This document shows, one piece after another, positions 36,347-47,246 of a stretch of DNA of 64,000 nucleotides. Made by a program: the position numbers and the translations under genes. The number at the start of each line of letters is the position of its first letter. The first letter of the stretch is position 1. The DNA lies in the NCBI GenBank assembly GCA_026125285.1, contig JAHCLO010000002.1:399115-463114 (forward strand), in the 5' to 3' direction. The notes under the pieces were generated by a model. It was not told the origin of the DNA. It did no database searches and was given only the letters and a program-made list of their open reading frames with translations. The stretch comes from Verrucomicrobiia bacterium (GTDB lineage Bacteria; Verrucomicrobiota; Verrucomicrobiia; Limisphaerales; JADLHS01).

Positions 36347-36841
36347 TCACTGTTTCTCGCGAGCAATCTTGGTCTCCAGGAACGCCCGATCCTCAGCGTC
36401 CTTGTCGCGATAGGTCTGCTTGGTGCGCAACAGGAGTCTGGCCGACGCGAATGGAATCGGCACCCCCTCAATCGTGTGGATTTCGACCTCCGATTCGCCG
36501 TCCCGGTAGCTGATACCACAGGCCATCGTCATCAGGTCCACCACCACCTCGTCGCACACCCGCACGACCACCCAGTTGCGGAGATCGTCGTCGCCAAGCT
36601 CGCGGACGGCTTTGTCGGGCAGAATTTCCAGCGCCTTCTTGGCTTTGGCCTGATTCTCAGGTGAATCCTCGATCAATATGTCAATGTCACCTGTTGTGCG
36701 CAGGTGTCCGTGCTGGATAACGGCGAATCCGCCGACAATAAGGTAGTTTGCTCCTTGAGCGTTGAGTTCCCGGCAGATTTGCACGAGGTCAGCCAGCAGC
36801 GGTGTGCGGGGTTCTATCGGGTGAGCATTTCCATCCGCCAT
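36347..36841 (-). CDS. Nucleotidyltransferase-fold protein, module 1
   Basis: The 164-aa product has the fold's core, LIVGGFAVIQHGHLRTTGDIDILIE (GG, then DxD about 51-53), as in AbiEii-like or DUF6036-type nucleotidyltransferases; a third acidic position may lie in VVVDLMTM. Such proteins are often the toxin or the modifying antitoxin of two-gene modules. It overlaps the preceding 82-aa gene by 28 bp, which supports a pair. It sits between an alcohol and an aldehyde dehydrogenase gene. The activity is unknown. Confidence 0.8.
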   Translation of the reverse strand: MADGNAHPIEPRTPLLADLVQICRELNAQGANYLIVGGFAVIQHGHLRTTGDIDILIEDSPENQAKAKKALEILPDKAVRELGDDDLRNWVVVRVCDEVVVDLMTMACGISYRDGESEVEIHTIEGVPIPFASARLLLRTKQTYRDKDAEDRAFLETKIAREKQ

Positions 36842-38546: not shown

Positions 38547-38701
38547 CTAGTGCCGTGACAAACATATTTCGAGACATGGCAGGGCGGGTCGTTCCGTGTG
38601 CGCCGTGGGGAATGCCCTGCGCCGGCTGCGGCGCGCATGGAATGACGCGCGCTACCCGCGCTCTGCAAGGTGGCAACGAAACTTCTTTGTCACGGCACCA
38701 G
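38547..38701 (+). repeat. MITE-like repeat, family A, copy 2
   Basis: A 155-bp stretch between CTAG (38547) and CCAG (38701). The ends are inverted repeats GTGCCGTGACAAA (38550-38562) and TTTGTCACGGCAC (38686-38698), perfect over 13 bp, continuing imperfectly with TTTCG/CGAAA. It aligns with the reverse complement of 24652-24805. It occupies about half of the gap between the aldehyde dehydrogenase start and the coiled-coil gene of the SNF2 cassette. Confidence 0.88.
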
Positions 38702-38866
38702 GGACAATGCCCGCTTACCCGGAGGTCCACGTGCAGCCCGGAGTTGAACCCCTCGTGGTACCACTTCTGCCCGGCACGTCATTGCGGTGGCGGCTCCTGG
38801 ACGAATGGGACATCGCTGTTCCCGATGCAGCAGTCGTCCTGGAGCAGTCGGGGGAGCACCGCCACC

Positions 38867-39892
38867 TCACAGGTTTGCCGTATCGTCGGCCAGCACCCAG
38901 CAGCGAGCGCGGGAAATGAGCCGCGCCGTGAGTGACTGCGGGCGATGAGCCACGGCCACCGCCAGTTCCGCGCGCCAGGCGGGTTCAGCCACCAACAACA
39001 GGGAATCCAAATGCGCCAGCGCGTGAATTTCGTGCCGGGTCACCTGATCCGCGCGCCGGCGGGCATGTTCCGCCTGCGCGGCAGCCAGGCGCTCGGCGGT
39101 TTTCATTTTGGTGGTGGCATTGCCCGTGCGCTTGGCGCGAGCGGCCAGTTCCTGTTCGTAGTGCTCGAAGTAATCTTCCACCCGCTCCAGTTCGCGCCGC
39201 AGATGATTCGCCTGTCGTTCCCGAATCGCTGCGAGGTCGGTGGCCAAATCAGTTTCCAAAGCCGTGCGCAAGAGTTCCCGCCACCGCCCCGGTTCGGGTT
39301 GCGGCCACCCGATGGCGGCGCTGCCATTCGTCGCCAGCGCGGCGAACTCCAACGATTGCGCCAATGCGTCGTCCGGCGCGCCATCGGGCAGCGACACCGC
39401 CAAGCGCCGCAGCGACCAGTGTTGGTCAATTGCCTGAATTTCGCAGCGCACCAGCGCCAGCAGCGAGAAGTGCCAGTCCGCTTGGAACGGCATCACCAAC
39501 TGCCAGCGGTTCGTCTCCGGAAACTGCGCCCGCCAAAGCTTCTCCGCCACGGCGGCGTCGGGCGGGCGGCCCCCGCTTTCCTCCGCGAGCACCACCCGTT
39601 CGAGCGCAAGCGGCGTGGGCCGCAATCCTTCCGTCAACCGAAACGTCAATGGACAACCGGGGAACACTTCCTTCGCCGCCTCACGGGGTGCGGTGTCTTC
39701 GGGCGGCGGAAACCACAATTCGACTTCATGCAGTGCGCCGGTTTCATTCCAAAGCTGCGCGCTTGCTCCTGCGGCCACCACCTCGAGCCGGTCGTGCCAG
39801 GTGCGCTCGCACAGCGCGCCCAGGGTGCCGAGGGCTTCCTCGTAGAAGTCCGCGACCGCGCCGGGTGAATGGGCAAGGCGTTCGAGTTTCAT
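38867..39892 (-). CDS. Coiled-coil protein of the SNF2 cassette
   Basis: The 341-aa product has an acidic, Pro-containing N-terminal half (1-200) with no family I recognise. A long charged helix follows at 208-290 (RRELERVEDYFEHYEQELAARAKR), then a short C-terminal beta-like part (LLVAEPAWRAELAVAVAHRPQSLTARLIS). This ending recalls the C-terminal region of some large SNF2/RapA-like ATPases, so it may be that region split off as a separate subunit; this is from memory and not tested. Its start overlaps the stop of the 134-aa gene by 4 bp (39889-39892), so the two are translationally coupled. No catalytic motif is visible. Confidence 0.75.
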   Translation of the reverse strand: MKLERLAHSPGAVADFYEEALGTLGALCERTWHDRLEVVAAGASAQLWNETGALHEVELWFPPPEDTAPREAAKEVFPGCPLTFRLTEGLRPTPLALERVVLAEESGGRPPDAAVAEKLWRAQFPETNRWQLVMPFQADWHFSLLALVRCEIQAIDQHWSLRRLAVSLPDGAPDDALAQSLEFAALATNGSAAIGWPQPEPGRWRELLRTALETDLATDLAAIRERQANHLRRELERVEDYFEHYEQELAARAKRTGNATTKMKTAERLAAAQAEHARRRADQVTRHEIHALAHLDSLLLVAEPAWRAELAVAVAHRPQSLTARLISRARCWVLADDTANL

Positions 39893-40293
39893 TTGAGGAA
39901 TCCGTCAATGAACTGCAAATAACCCTGGCGCCCGCCGCTGCGCGTGTGCCGTTCGACCGACTTGGCCAGTTCCTGCAAACAGGCCAGCAACTCATCCAAC
40001 GGGATGGGGGAAAAGCCGGCGTCTGCCTCGTTCTCCGCAGCAGGCGGACCGGGATCGCGCCCCAGCCGGAACTCGCACATCTTCTTCAATTCCTCAAACG
40101 CGAGGGAGTCCAGTCCGGAGAGCCCGGACGGTGGCGCCGGTTTGCCGCGCATTTCCGCGCGGTAGTGTTGGCGGGCCGCCTCGTAGGCGCGCAACGCCGA
40201 GTAATCGGTCATCTCCGAATGCGCCCGCCACACTTCCACGATGGCGAACTCCAGGTTTTGCAACACGTCGAGATTTTCTTCCTGCCATTTCAT
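39889..40293 (-). CDS. Small helical protein of the SNF2 cassette
   Basis: The 134-aa product starts MKWQEENLDVLQNLEFAIVEVW. It is mostly predicted helix, ending in SGGRQGYLQFIDGFLK with a conserved-looking aromatic tail. I recognise no family. It lies between the SNF2 ATPase (110 bp upstream) and the coiled-coil gene (overlap 4 bp) on the same strand. Its position in a compact cassette points to a subunit or adaptor role, which is inference. Confidence 0.72.
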   Translation of the reverse strand: MKWQEENLDVLQNLEFAIVEVWRAHSEMTDYSALRAYEAARQHYRAEMRGKPAPPSGLSGLDSLAFEELKKMCEFRLGRDPGPPAAENEADAGFSPIPLDELLACLQELAKSVERHTRSGGRQGYLQFIDGFLK

Positions 40294-40403
40294 AGATTTC
40301 CTGACTCAAGTCGCCACCACAAACTTTTGTTGCACCTGCAATAAAAGTTGGTCATGCAATTGGAAAGCAACAACATGCGAGTGGTGTGATTTTGCGTATT
40401 GGT

Positions 40404-43400
40404 TCATAACGATTCGTAGTCCTTCGCGAACAGGGTTTCGTCCAGTTGCTTGACCTCCGCATAGTCGGCGCGGGCGGCGGCCAGTTCGTCGCCCAGACTC
40501 GCGAACGCCTCGGCCACGCGGCCCTCGCTCTCCCGCCAGCGCCGCAGCACTTCGTCGGCAAATTCGTCGCTGGCAAATTTCTCGCCCAACACCAGGCCGG
40601 TTTCGCCCACGACCAACTCGAACAAGTTCAGCTTCTCCTGCAACACGTCGAGCAGATGCGCCTGGAGCGTGCCGGCTTGCACAAAGTTGTAAATCCGCAC
40701 CGGATGCTGCTGCCCCAGCCGGTGCAACCGCCCGATGCGCTGTTCGATCTCCATCGGATTCCAGGGCAGATCGAAGTTGGCGAGCCGATGGCAGAACTGG
40801 AGGTTGCGTCCCTCCGTGCCGCTGTGCGTGAGCAGCAGGGCGCCGCCCCGTTTGTGAAATTGCTCGGTGATGGGCTGCCGCTCGGGTGGGGGAGTCGCGC
40901 CATTGATGACGAACGTCTCGACGCCAACCCTGCGCAGAAACTCCGCCAGCGCCGCTTGCGTTTCCAAAAATTGCGTAAAGATGACCGCGCCACCTTCGCC
41001 GCGGGTGAACGGGACGAGCAGTTCGCATTTGCGCTGCCAACTGGCCTCCAGCGGGGCCTGTTCGCGCCAGGTTTTCGCGGCCGCGCGATCGGGGAATTTT
41101 TCCAGCGCACTGCGCCACGCGCCGGGACTGCTACCGGCGGCCTGCAACAACAGCCGGCCCCAGAGACTGGCCTGGCTGGCGCTCAGTTCCGCCAGTCGCG
41201 CGCGGAACTCGGCTTCCCATCGCTGCCAGAAGGCGCGCTCGGCTTCGTCCGGCTCGAACAAGATGGTTTCCGCGCGGCGCGGCGGCAACTTGAGTCCGGC
41301 ATTGGCGCGCGTGTTGCGAATCATCACCTGCCCGAGCAGGCGGCGCAGTTCCTCCGGCTCGCGCGGCTGACGCGGACGTTTCGGGTCCACGAACCGGGCG
41401 CGAAATTCCTTGGGCGAAGGCAACTGCCCCGGCTGGAGCAGCGTGACGAGGTTGTAGAGTTCATCCAGCGAGTTCTGGACGGGCGTGGCCGTGAGCAGCA
41501 GGAGAAACTGGCGCGGCAGCGCGTTGACCGCCTGCCAGGCCAGCGAGTCGCGATTCCGCAGATAGTGCGCCTCATCCACGATCAGCAAATCCCAGTGCGT
41601 CTGCCGCGCCACGGCCAAATGCGCCGGCTGCTTGACCGTGTGCAAACTGGCGACCAGCCCCGGGTGATCGCGCCAAAATGATTGGGGATCATTGCGGGCA
41701 GCTTCGTCGTTCGTCGTGACGGTGGCGAGGCCGAATTTGTCGTTCAATTCCTCCTGCCATTGATCCACGAGCGAGGGCACGGTGAGCACGAGGAATTTCT
41801 TCACCAGACCGCGCATGAGCAATTCCTTGAGCACGAGTCCGGCCTCAATGGTTTTGCCGAGGCCGACTTCATCCGAAAGCAACGCGCGACCCCGCAACGG
41901 TCCCAACACGCGCAGCGCGGTGCGCAATTGGTAATCCAACTGCTCGATCCGACAATGCGGCAGACAGAGCAGATCGTCGGACTGGTTGGAAACCCACCAC
42001 AGAGCGGCGCGCTCGCGCAGGAAGTAACCGCGCAAGTCCGGCAGCGGAAAGGTTGTATCCTGGAAGGCCAGTTCGGGAAACTCCACGCGCACCGGCACGG
42101 GCGGAATCGGTGGTCGTTCGGGTGCGGCGGATTTCAGATGTGAAGTTTGGGATTTGAGATTTTCCGCAGACGCCTTCTTGGCTTCGGCGGCCTTCTTTGC
42201 CTCGGCGGCCTTGCGCGCCGCCGCTTCGCGCTGTTCCTTCAAGCGGCGCTCCTCCGCCAGGCGCGCCATCGTCTCGCGGCGGCGCTGTTCCTCCTCCTGG
42301 CGCTTTTGCTCTTTGCGGATTTCGCGGCGCGCGTGCCGTTCGTAATCGGACAACGCGGTCGGGTCCAGGTCCTGGGTGGCCCGCCCCAACGGCGAGAAGT
42401 TGAAGCGCAGCGCCTCCGCCATCGCGGCGAGGTTGTCCTCGACCCAGGCAATGGGTGATTCATCCAGACCGAAAGGCGGTTCTGGCTCAATTTCGGGTTT
42501 GTCGGCGATGGGGCTGGGCTTCACCCAAAAGCCGGCGAAAGTGTTGCGGTTCGTGGGGAATAACTTGAGCCAGGCGTCCAGCTTGCCGCGAATGGCGTTG
42601 CGATGATGGGACGTGACCGACAGCTCGCGGCCACCGTCTCTTTCCAGTTCCCAGGTCAGTTGATCGCCGCCCGTGACCCGCACGCGGCCAGCGGCGACCG
42701 TGCTCCGATCCGTGGGTGCGTTCCAAACGAACTCCGCGAAGCCCTTCACCTGGTTAAAGGTCACGCTGAGGTGCAGCATTTCGGCAACGGGCGCGAGTGG
42801 CGCAGCGTTCTCCGTCCAGTCTTGAAGATTTGGCGGCACGCCCAACAGCGCGCAGGCCAGCAGGCGCAGGGCGGCCCGGCCGCGCGCCGCCGGATCACCT
42901 CCGGGCGCGAATCCGGAATCCAACATCGCCGCGAATTGCCCCACCTGTCGCGTCAGCCATTTCCAGGGATCTTCGCCGGGCGGGCTTTGCAGTTGGATGC
43001 GTTCCCCCTGCTTGGCCGGCCCCAGGTCGGCATCCAGCAGCAGAAGAAAAGTCGGGGCGATGGCCGCCAGCGGAAACAGCTTGCGAATCCGGTTGAGCAG
43101 CGCGCGAACGGACGAGGCATGGGCACTGCAAAAATCGTGGCGGCCCCGCCGGCTGCCCTCCAACCACCAGTCGAGGGTGAATAGTCGGAATTCGCTCAAC
43201 TCGGCGGGGATCAATCGGCCTTGCGCTTGCACCGCCCCAGTGACCGGGTTGAGCCACTCGAACTGAATTGCCCCGGCGGTCAGGTCAAACGTCACGCGCA
43301 CGCGAAGTGGAGCGGGCGCGACGGGAGGGCCTTCCTCGGGAGAGGAAGCGGTGAACTCAAGCTGGTCGTCCGCGGGCGGCACGGCGGCGAGGATGCGCAA
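40404..43400 (-). CDS. SNF2-family helicase-like ATPase with novel N-terminal region
   Basis: The 998-aa protein has a RapA-like SNF2 core at about 455-930: Walker A DEVGLGKTIEAG (510-521), DEAH (609-612), LLTATP (635-640), motif V-like GTEGRNLQF (861-869) and motif VI QRIGRLHRLGQ (887-897). A basic-acidic, Ala-rich helix (350-415) links it to an N-terminal region. There, residues about 36-111 and 211-282 look like two copies of one domain (VTF...W...RKLFP and VTF...W...LKLFP). Such ATPases remodel protein-nucleic-acid complexes; RapA recycles RNA polymerase, and others such as DrmD act in phage defence. No nuclease or methylase is fused or adjacent. Confidence 0.9.
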   Translation of the reverse strand: MRILAAVPPADDQLEFTASSPEEGPPVAPAPLRVRVTFDLTAGAIQFEWLNPVTGAVQAQGRLIPAELSEFRLFTLDWWLEGSRRGRHDFCSAHASSVRALLNRIRKLFPLAAIAPTFLLLLDADLGPAKQGERIQLQSPPGEDPWKWLTRQVGQFAAMLDSGFAPGGDPAARGRAALRLLACALLGVPPNLQDWTENAAPLAPVAEMLHLSVTFNQVKGFAEFVWNAPTDRSTVAAGRVRVTGGDQLTWELERDGGRELSVTSHHRNAIRGKLDAWLKLFPTNRNTFAGFWVKPSPIADKPEIEPEPPFGLDESPIAWVEDNLAAMAEALRFNFSPLGRATQDLDPTALSDYERHARREIRKEQKRQEEEQRRRETMARLAEERRLKEQREAAARKAAEAKKAAEAKKASAENLKSQTSHLKSAAPERPPIPPVPVRVEFPELAFQDTTFPLPDLRGYFLRERAALWWVSNQSDDLLCLPHCRIEQLDYQLRTALRVLGPLRGRALLSDEVGLGKTIEAGLVLKELLMRGLVKKFLVLTVPSLVDQWQEELNDKFGLATVTTNDEAARNDPQSFWRDHPGLVASLHTVKQPAHLAVARQTHWDLLIVDEAHYLRNRDSLAWQAVNALPRQFLLLLTATPVQNSLDELYNLVTLLQPGQLPSPKEFRARFVDPKRPRQPREPEELRRLLGQVMIRNTRANAGLKLPPRRAETILFEPDEAERAFWQRWEAEFRARLAELSASQASLWGRLLLQAAGSSPGAWRSALEKFPDRAAAKTWREQAPLEASWQRKCELLVPFTRGEGGAVIFTQFLETQAALAEFLRRVGVETFVINGATPPPERQPITEQFHKRGGALLLTHSGTEGRNLQFCHRLANFDLPWNPMEIEQRIGRLHRLGQQHPVRIYNFVQAGTLQAHLLDVLQEKLNLFELVVGETGLVLGEKFASDEFADEVLRRWRESEGRVAEAFASLGDELAAARADYAEVKQLDETLFAKDYESL

Positions 43401-44186: not shown

Positions 44187-44756
44187 TCAATGGGGCGGAT
44201 TCTGTCGCGCCAACTGAAGAACGACGGGTTTGGCCTTCGCAAACGCATCCTGTAGTTCAACCAGCTTGATGGGCTGCATCTGCGTGAATGCTTCGCATAA
44301 TTGCACCTCGGTAATGCGGTCGTGATGGATCATGAATGCGGCGTCGGCCATGTCCTGCGGATCGTTGCCGCGCATCATTTTTGAAAGCACGAGGTCAATC
44401 GTCGCCGGGCGGAAGAGTCGCAGGTGGCGCAGTTCCAATTTGGAAACTGACACCACGTGGGTCAGCCAGTCTTGACGAAGAAAAATTTCCCGTTCGCTGA
44501 ACAAGTGGGTGATGTAGAGGCCGCGCGCCGCGAGTTCTGCGTTCGCTGCTTCAATCGCGTCCCAAAACGTGTTGTCAGTTTCCAACTCCGTTTCCTGAAT
44601 GGTGCTGATGACGGCATCCACGTCTTGCGTGCGCGCAGCTTCCGGAGGCGAGCCGTTGAATCCGAGCCAAACGGCCGCGCGACCATAAATCACCAGTCGC
44701 ACGTCGTGATCCAGGAACCGGTCCACGGTTTGAAGAATCAATGAGGGGTTATCCAT
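44187..44756 (-). CDS. Nucleotidyltransferase-like protein (DUF6036 type), module 2
   Basis: The 189-aa product from the ATG at 44756 (MDNPSLILQTVDRFL) has LVIYGRAAVWLGF (about 21-33), in the place of the GG/GS loop, and a QDVDAVIS acidic motif near 45-52. Length and order fit DUF6036-like nucleotidyltransferases. It overlaps the preceding gene by 8 bp. It lies 4 bp upstream of trpF-like on the same strand, so it may also be cotranscribed with it. Activity unknown; probably part of a toxin-antitoxin-like pair. Confidence 0.75.
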   Translation of the reverse strand: MDNPSLILQTVDRFLDHDVRLVIYGRAAVWLGFNGSPPEAARTQDVDAVISTIQETELETDNTFWDAIEAANAELAARGLYITHLFSEREIFLRQDWLTHVVSVSKLELRHLRLFRPATIDLVLSKMMRGNDPQDMADAAFMIHHDRITEVQLCEAFTQMQPIKLVELQDAFAKAKPVVLQLARQNPPH

Positions 44757-45300
44757 GTGCTGAGGCGAGGTCGGAGCGAGGCCGAATCCAGATCGCGACG
44801 ATTTTGGCACCGGCGCGCGTAATCCCAGACATGGAAACGAATCGCGTGGGATGGGGCATCACCCCATCCGGGATTGGGGGAGTGGACGGCAACTGGTCCA
44901 ACAACCGTCGCCAAAAGAGGTTGTCAGGCTCGAAGCGAAGGCCGGCATTGGCGATGTAACGCACGGGGGCGATACACCCCTCCGCTTTGGCAAGCTGGCA
45001 GATGGTGTCAACCTCATTGCCGGTCGCACCCAGCATGGCCGCGCCAATCCGAATCGTGTGGGGGGCGTAGGGAAGGGCTGGGGACAGCAGGGCAACGGCC
45101 AGTTCTTCGTTGCTGAATTCTGATTCGGAGACCTTTGGAACTGGAGTGAGGGCGGGACTCCGGTAGTGCCAGCAGCCGCGCGCAACGCCGAGGCCTTCCA
45201 ACAACTCAGGCGAATGCAAGCCGGCCTGCTTTGCTTTCGCGAGCAGCGATGATTCGCGGATGGGAGCGCCCAGTTTTTCGGCCAAGGTTTGGGTGTTCAC
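44749..45300 (-). CDS. Partner of the nucleotidyltransferase, module 2, unknown function
   Basis: The most likely start is a GTG at 45300 (VNTQTLAEKLGAPIRE), giving 183 aa; no ATG is available in this frame near relatives' length. The frame continues upstream into the adenylate-forming enzyme gene, but that part is antisense-like. The product is mostly helical with segments KAKQAGLHSPELLEGLGV and NEVDTICQLAKAEGC. Its end overlaps the nucleotidyltransferase start by 8 bp. Resemblance to AbiEi-like antitoxins is possible but not demonstrable by eye. Confidence 0.6.
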   Translation of the reverse strand: MNTQTLAEKLGAPIRESSLLAKAKQAGLHSPELLEGLGVARGCWHYRSPALTPVPKVSESEFSNEELAVALLSPALPYAPHTIRIGAAMLGATGNEVDTICQLAKAEGCIAPVRYIANAGLRFEPDNLFWRRLLDQLPSTPPIPDGVMPHPTRFVSMSGITRAGAKIVAIWIRPRSDLASAHG

Positions 45301-46459: not shown

Positions 46460-46852
46460 TTACTTTCTTGATAGACCGAGGCTGGCTCGAATTTCCGCCC
46501 GGACGGAGCGGCAGGCTTTGAGCGCGGCCCGAGCGTCGGCGCGCGTGGCGGTATGGCCCGGGTAGCGAAATTTGATCGCGTAGTTGGTCAGCATGAGCAG
46601 GGACGGGTTGAACGCAGCCCAGAGCGGATGCGCCGGGAGTACCAACGAGAGCAATGCCGACAGACTGTGAATTTTCGGGATGTGTGCGCCGGCTTCTTCA
46701 AGGCACGCCTTCAGATACTTTTCGACGCATTGCTGGCAGTGAAATCCAATCGCACTCGCGGTTGGCTTCCGGGTCCGGCTCTTGAAGGCCAGATTCGCGA
46801 TGGCGAAGTCTTCTTCGGCGCACCGGATCCACTCAAGCGTTCCTGGCTTCAT
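46460..46852 (-). CDS. HEPN-domain protein of an MNT-HEPN pair, module 3
   Basis: The 130-aa product is a four-helix HEPN domain with GFHCQQCVEKYLKACLEEAGAHIPKIHSLSALL (described in parts) and a RYPGH segment near residue 100. Active HEPN RNases carry an R-x4-6-H motif; here the spacing R-Y-P-G-H is one shorter, so the enzyme may be weak or inactive. In known pairs the MNT protein AMPylates the HEPN toxin. It overlaps the preceding MNT gene by 20 bp. Confidence 0.85.
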   Translation of the reverse strand: MKPGTLEWIRCAEEDFAIANLAFKSRTRKPTASAIGFHCQQCVEKYLKACLEEAGAHIPKIHSLSALLSLVLPAHPLWAAFNPSLLMLTNYAIKFRYPGHTATRADARAALKACRSVRAEIRASLGLSRK

Positions 46853-47246
46853 AAATGACCTGCCCGCGGTCGAGCACTTCCCGTGTAAAGTAGTCCGTTC
46901 GCTTTGCTCGCTCAGGTTTCCACAACAGCATATCCATGGGAAAAGGCGCTCCGACCCGGAGCTGCATTTCGACCACCTTCTTCGTATCCGATCCGCGAAA
47001 CGGCATGACTACCACCAGGTCCACGTCCGAATCGAGCGTGGGTTTTCCGTACGCGTAGGAGCCGAACAGAATGATCTTCTGCGGATGGAATTCCCGGGCC
47101 AGCACCCGGCAGTAAGACTCGATCTGTTTGCGGGGAACCCGCCGCGTCCCGTCCCAAAGCGGGCCGGGGACCTCGGGATGCCAGAGCTGCAGCGGCGCGG
47201 GTTGAGTGGCCGCCGGACTGCGCTTGCCGTTGCGTTTTCGCTTCAT
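46833..47246 (-). CDS. Minimal nucleotidyltransferase of an MNT-HEPN pair, module 3
   Basis: The 137-aa product has the MNT core IILFGSYAYGKPTLDSDVDLVVVMP: GS loop and DxD near residues 61-77. The third acid may be in MDMLLW. Proteins of this type, such as MntA, AMPylate and neutralise a HEPN toxin. The gene precedes and overlaps the HEPN gene by 20 bp, as in the standard order. The N-terminus (1-30) is basic and unusual; an internal start is possible. Confidence 0.88.
   Translation of the reverse strand: MKRKRNGKRSPAATQPAPLQLWHPEVPGPLWDGTRRVPRKQIESYCRVLAREFHPQKIILFGSYAYGKPTLDSDVDLVVVMPFRGSDTKKVVEMQLRVGAPFPMDMLLWKPERAKRTDYFTREVLDRGQVIYEARNA

Follow-up and report, generated by a model that had tools for sequence, protein, structure and literature searches.

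The products of two adjacent genes, SNF2 and ORF341, together correspond to a single Swi2/Snf2 translocase of RapA/BrxHII type, the chain of which is interrupted behind the motor. Both genes lie on the minus strand of the window, the whole analyzed stretch of 64,000 nucleotides from a Verrucomicrobiia bacterium (contig JAHCLO010000002.1). The split of the motor chain is well supported, and the split-RapA anatomy, taken by itself and without a role in defence, is very probable. The function, defence or the clearing of transcription complexes, is inferred. The reading that we prefer, with slightly less than even confidence, is that the pair is a two-subunit translocase of RapA/BrxHII type that has a defence ancestry and acts as a stand-alone device against invaders.

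Organization of the cassette and conservation of the gene pair

A preliminary description of this locus proposed a three-gene system in which an SNF2 ATPase is accompanied by two unrecognized partners. Three minus-strand ORFs are indeed present as claimed: SNF2 (40404–43400, 998 aa from a TTG start, the start codon being uncertain), ORF134 (39889–40293) and ORF341 (38867–39892), the last two of which overlap by 4 bp (39889–39892). SNF2, which consists of a pair of repeated domains at the N-terminus, a basic linker and a motor of RapA type, is the sole member of the cassette with domain matches (SNF2-rel_dom at 120 bits and Helicase_C at 55.7 bits in Pfam). For ORF134 and ORF341, Pfam gave no matches, and NCBIfam and PADLOC gave no meaningful ones. 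ORF341 is nevertheless not entirely beyond recognition, because its predicted fold is that of the RapA C-terminus, an outcome that had been named beforehand as speaking against the claim and that in part does so. ORF341 is conserved at 44–72% identity in 20 aligned homologues; therefore, the ORFs are genes rather than chance reading frames.

Among 320 genomes of the order, SNF2 was found in 25, ORF341 in 25 and both in 23. The genomes with a single gene are explained by contig ends (G097 and G130), by an ORF341 remnant with a frameshift (G048) and by stops inside the SNF2 gene (G215). Wherever a fetched locus has both gene ends on the same contig, SNF2 is followed by ORF341 as the next conserved gene, and in eight fetched loci the two genes overlap by 4 bp. 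Carriers are distributed over 23 of the 118 genera of the order, a distribution that is therefore patchy, and G725 was the only further clear carrier among the genomes sampled from the class and the phylum. ORF134, on the other hand, separates SNF2 and ORF341 in just three loci, those of the window, G005 and G131, and it occurs without the pair, in unrelated surroundings, in G001 and G016; it is thus an optional passenger. The three-gene system is accordingly rejected, because ORF134 is dispensable and the conserved unit consists of two genes. The proposal of a conserved unit that extends over many genera under no curated name is supported, and co-occurrence across the order holds for the pair but not for ORF134, which joins it in three loci. 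Weak ORF341-like matches in G410 and G610 (E about 1e-4) were discarded since their frames overlap unrelated genes. In the related genomes G090 and G092 (loci L053 and L057), the cassette locus has the same flanking genes; the ORF341 of G092 contains a frame break, and a stop was reported in that of G090 by the search. A short tandem repeat array with PHTFQAVSGSFGS... units is located near a stand-alone ORF134 homologue (L144, 7777–8296).

The flanks of the cassette agree with the preliminary description in two respects. No methyltransferase, DUF1998 or PLD genes were found among the flanking genes scanned, and a dispersed MITE/REP-like repeat of about 155 bp (38547–38702) lies downstream of ORF341. 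The own genome contains about 40 copies of this repeat, which have diverged to 70–84% identity, and several of them match the same core on both strands, which indicates that the repeat is palindromic. It is probably not part of the system.

ORF341 as a predicted structural counterpart of the RapA C-terminus

The AlphaFold model of ORF341, generated from 21 homologues, has a mean pLDDT of 85.6. When this model was compared by Foldseek with 350,542 solved chains, RapA entries alone gave significant matches (E 1.9e-4 to 4.2e-4); a fourth RapA entry followed at 1.5e-3 and the next unrelated match at 0.26. VIA-align placed ORF341 residues 2–306 on RapA residues 703–968 with a Z of about 6, a score that is accompanied by a large rmsd and is no higher than those of some plain coiled coils. 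Independently of this match, the SNF2 model aligns with RapA residues 143–697. Together, the two proteins thus tile RapA, and the break between them falls near residue 700. The structural models thereby bear out the suggestion that the third protein of the cassette represents a detached C-terminal portion of the ATPase.

According to DSSP of the model, residues 1–125 of ORF341 (39518–39892, minus strand) form an alpha-beta-beta-beta-alpha-beta arrangement that resembles a restriction endonuclease, a spacer fold known for RapA/BrxHII (PMC12839542); the PD-(D/E)XK lysine is absent from the strand-3 residues examined. The C-terminal part (38870–39517, minus strand) is a coiled-coil domain with helices at residues 201–255 and 259–286, which agrees with the described C-terminal domain of RapA/BrxHII (PMC12839542). 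By fold, the spacer and the C-terminal domain that follow the motor are thus present, but in a separate protein.

This correspondence is structural. RapA_C (PF12137) matched none of the 21 ORF341 homologues and nothing in the own genome, and hhalign comparisons of ORF341 with RapA_C or with HmaA C-termini scored hardly above block-shuffled controls. Homology to either C-terminus at the level of sequence was accordingly rejected as negative or marginal, so that the profile comparison gave little where the Foldseek comparison pointed to RapA, and the case for homology between ORF341 and RapA is built on fold and on the position of the gene. Conceivably, ORF341 is a coiled-coil cofactor without relationship to RapA that merely resembles its C-terminus, as the missing profile link and the many plain coiled coils among the VIA-align results would allow. 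However, we consider this very unlikely, because RapA entries are the sole significant Foldseek matches among the 350,542 solved chains and cover both halves of ORF341, and because the part of RapA matched by ORF341 begins precisely at the end of the part matched by SNF2.

The motor and N-terminal module of SNF2

The conserved motor of SNF2 (residues 431–998; 40407–42110, minus strand) is the part that aligns with RapA 143–697, and it ends at a conserved LDETLFAKDYESL tail at the point where RapA would continue. Among 20 SNF2 homologues, the motor is 596 residues long in 19, with a median identity of 74%; all 20 have intact motifs I, II and VI, and 19 have an intact motif III. RapA is the best solved relative of the SNF2 model, the search with the full model having covered residues 470–998 only.

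Two repeats precede the motor. Repeat 1 (about residues 28–190; 42831–43319, minus strand) is modeled as five strands, a helix, two strands and further helices, and repeat 2 (about residues 205–340; 42381–42788, minus strand) has the same topology; the two match each other in BLAST with an E of 3e-7. Repeat 2 is hypervariable between genera. No Tudor domain was found by Pfam in the repeats, the fold of which was barely covered by the structure search. In the 20 homologues, the N-terminal part varies in length from 191 to 587 residues and shows about 30–31% identity, and 50 of the 190 pairs have no detectable similarity. For comparison, the canonical RapA proteins of the same order show 50% identity in the N-terminal domain vs 62% in the motor. 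The contrast between the two parts of SNF2 fits a fast-changing recognition module mounted on a fixed engine.

Relationship to RapA and to the helicases of known defence systems

RapA, the Swi2/Snf2 ATPase that recycles RNA polymerase in E. coli, has a described domain layout and activation (PMC8501970) and contains, arranged as in the pair, the motor, the spacer fold and the coiled-coil C-terminal fold. In contrast to the single chain of RapA, the pair is encoded by two genes, has other N-terminal domains, belongs to a separate clade and lacks a RapA_C sequence match. BrxHII and the helicases of BREX-related systems centered on DUF499 (Hma) likewise have a RapA-like layout (PMC12839542), and split pairs in haloarchaea adjoin DUF499/DUF1156 genes; however, BrxHII and Hma helicases are single chains, whereas the window contains two genes and neither an ATPase nor a methylase partner. 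DrmD of DISARM is homologous in its SNF2 motor, but SNF2 scores 221.5 bits against a cut-off of 610, the chain is split, and DrmA/B/C and methylase genes were not among the neighbors scanned. Similarly, SNF2 reaches 176.4 bits with the NCBIfam RapA equivalog (cut-off 576), falls well below the curated cut-off for DpdE, and scores 131 bits with the HmaA model, compared with 1708 for the HmaA of the same genome. In PMC12839542, no wording that refers to a split helicase was found, and none of the papers retrieved by the literature search has a title or abstract describing a split form.

Since RapA is the best solved-structure match of both halves, and since the loci of the pair lie among housekeeping genes rather than in defence islands, the pair may be a split RNA-polymerase recycling factor with an accessory housekeeping role, which, like RapA, would remove RNA polymerase that has stalled or complexes left after termination. 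Several observations make this rather unlikely. Canonical RapA is present in 98 of the 320 genomes of the order and in 7–8 of the 25 pair carriers, as chance predicts (25 × 98/320 = 7.7); the pair therefore does not replace RapA, and replacement was rejected. In addition, the motor of the pair forms a separate clade. By Pfam, the N-terminal part of SNF2 does not resemble the tandem Tudor domains of RapA, and it varies far more than the N-terminal domain of RapA does.

Split pairs on plasmids

A motor search of 72,556 plasmids yielded 19 relatives with an E below 1e-70, followed by a sharp drop. These relatives belong to cyanobacteria, Rhodovastum and haloarchaea, and their motors are minimal, at about 520–600 aa and with no N-terminal repeats. 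A partner match is located directly downstream of the motor in 18 of the 19; in the remaining one, from Halocatena, the next gene scores 261 bits with the haloarchaeal partner profile. The ORF341 profile reaches the cyanobacterial and Rhodovastum partners with a best score of 41.7 bits (decoys, at most 8.7), and in the reciprocal direction the best score is 35.7 bits. The haloarchaeal partners are not reached by the ORF341 sequence profile; they have gene position, apparent domain order and a long coiled coil in common with ORF341. The split is thus common to the cyanobacterial and Rhodovastum pairs and, by position and layout, to the haloarchaeal ones. In the motor tree, which is disturbed by one very long branch, the split lineages group together and apart from RapA, HmaA and DrmD, and a single clade of split motors is not rejected (p-AU 0.41). 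An SNF2 protein of a Bacillus plasmid (H71) was set aside as a distant long-branch motor whose next gene is unlike the partner, and spread via known phages or viral contigs was dismissed, as no ORF341 relative occurs among them.

Genomic context and possible role in defence

In Verrucomicrobiota, no defence, nuclease or methylase genes adjoin the pair, which stands alone among housekeeping genes. The 109 flanking proteins gave strong PADLOC matches to generic families only (RecQ, ABC, RecF-like ATPases and subtilase). Proximity to defence genes, which the preliminary description would have counted as support, is thus not seen in this order, and a defence island was rejected. The situation differs in haloarchaea: a DUF499 ATPase and an N6-methyltransferase, absent around the pair in the window and its homologues in the order, are present beside haloarchaeal relatives. 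DUF1156 methylases occur in 8 of the 12 haloarchaeal loci, 5 of these 8 also contain DUF499 ATPases, and the DUF1156 and DUF499 proteins that were tested score as HmaB-like and HmaC-like; these are therefore taken to be defence loci. Three of the other four loci carry an annotated restriction endonuclease. The annotation of the stretches shown of the five DUF499 loci lists no SNF2 helicase in a single chain, so the split pair appears to fill their helicase slot. HNH, DUF262, Piwi or UvrD genes lie near the DUF499/DUF1156 loci with a split SNF2 pair on haloarchaeal plasmids (L208–L215).

The loci of these relatives suggest a defence ancestry for the pair, and a stand-alone anti-invader translocase is its most likely role because sister lineages reside on plasmids and the haloarchaeal ones in DUF499/DUF1156 defence loci. 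A feasible model may be as follows. The hypervariable N-terminal module of SNF2 would serve in sensing, and the motor would pull on double-stranded DNA at the expense of ATP. ORF341 would supply in trans the inactive-endonuclease-like spacer and the coiled-coil arm that RapA carries in cis, and is expected to associate with the motor, as a subunit that regulates it or grips the target. Moving along DNA, the assembly may then force apart, or signal, a protein–DNA complex that the N-terminal module recognizes.

A different fate is conceivable for a motor of this descent: it may have been domesticated or be decaying, with its partners lost and no present immune role, for example as a general remover of DNA-bound proteins. 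Its relatives in DUF499/DUF1156 loci, its orphan state in this order, the remnants in G048 and G215 and the frame breaks in G092 and L014 would all be compatible with such a fate. However, the motor is conserved at 74% with intact motifs over 23 genera, and this figure, together with the conservation of ORF341, implies strong current selection, which makes domestication or decay unlikely. With regard to the anti-invader translocase that we prefer, it is tempting to speculate further that a previously undescribed family of two-subunit RapA-type translocases extends over Verrucomicrobiota, cyanobacteria, an alphaproteobacterium and haloarchaea, and that it acts in archaea as the helicase of a DUF499/methylase system and in bacteria as a stand-alone immune device that recognizes invaders through hypervariable N-terminal repeats; this broader proposal is possible but rather doubtful.

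The helicases of BREX type 3 and of BREX-related systems have one layout in common with RapA, the C-terminal domains of which are without a settled function. As the pair is split by nature, the role of these domains for the motor could be addressed biochemically by adding or removing ORF341. Furthermore, the ORF341 family has no name in the Pfam, NCBIfam and PADLOC libraries searched, so that annotation and defence finders miss the system, and defence systems with a split helicase would score as incomplete, as the haloarchaeal loci suggest.

Elsewhere, the own genome encodes two helicases of known defence systems, a full HmaA (1170 aa, 1708 bits; L121, 3973–7485) and a DrmD (1084 aa, 1067 bits; L122, 5973–9227). 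Within the window, two weakly recognized nucleotidyltransferases (36347–36841 and 44187–44810), with DUF6036-type matches below the cut-off, flank the cassette, and adjacent HEPN and MntA-like nucleotidyltransferase genes (46460–47246) probably form a type VII toxin-antitoxin pair.
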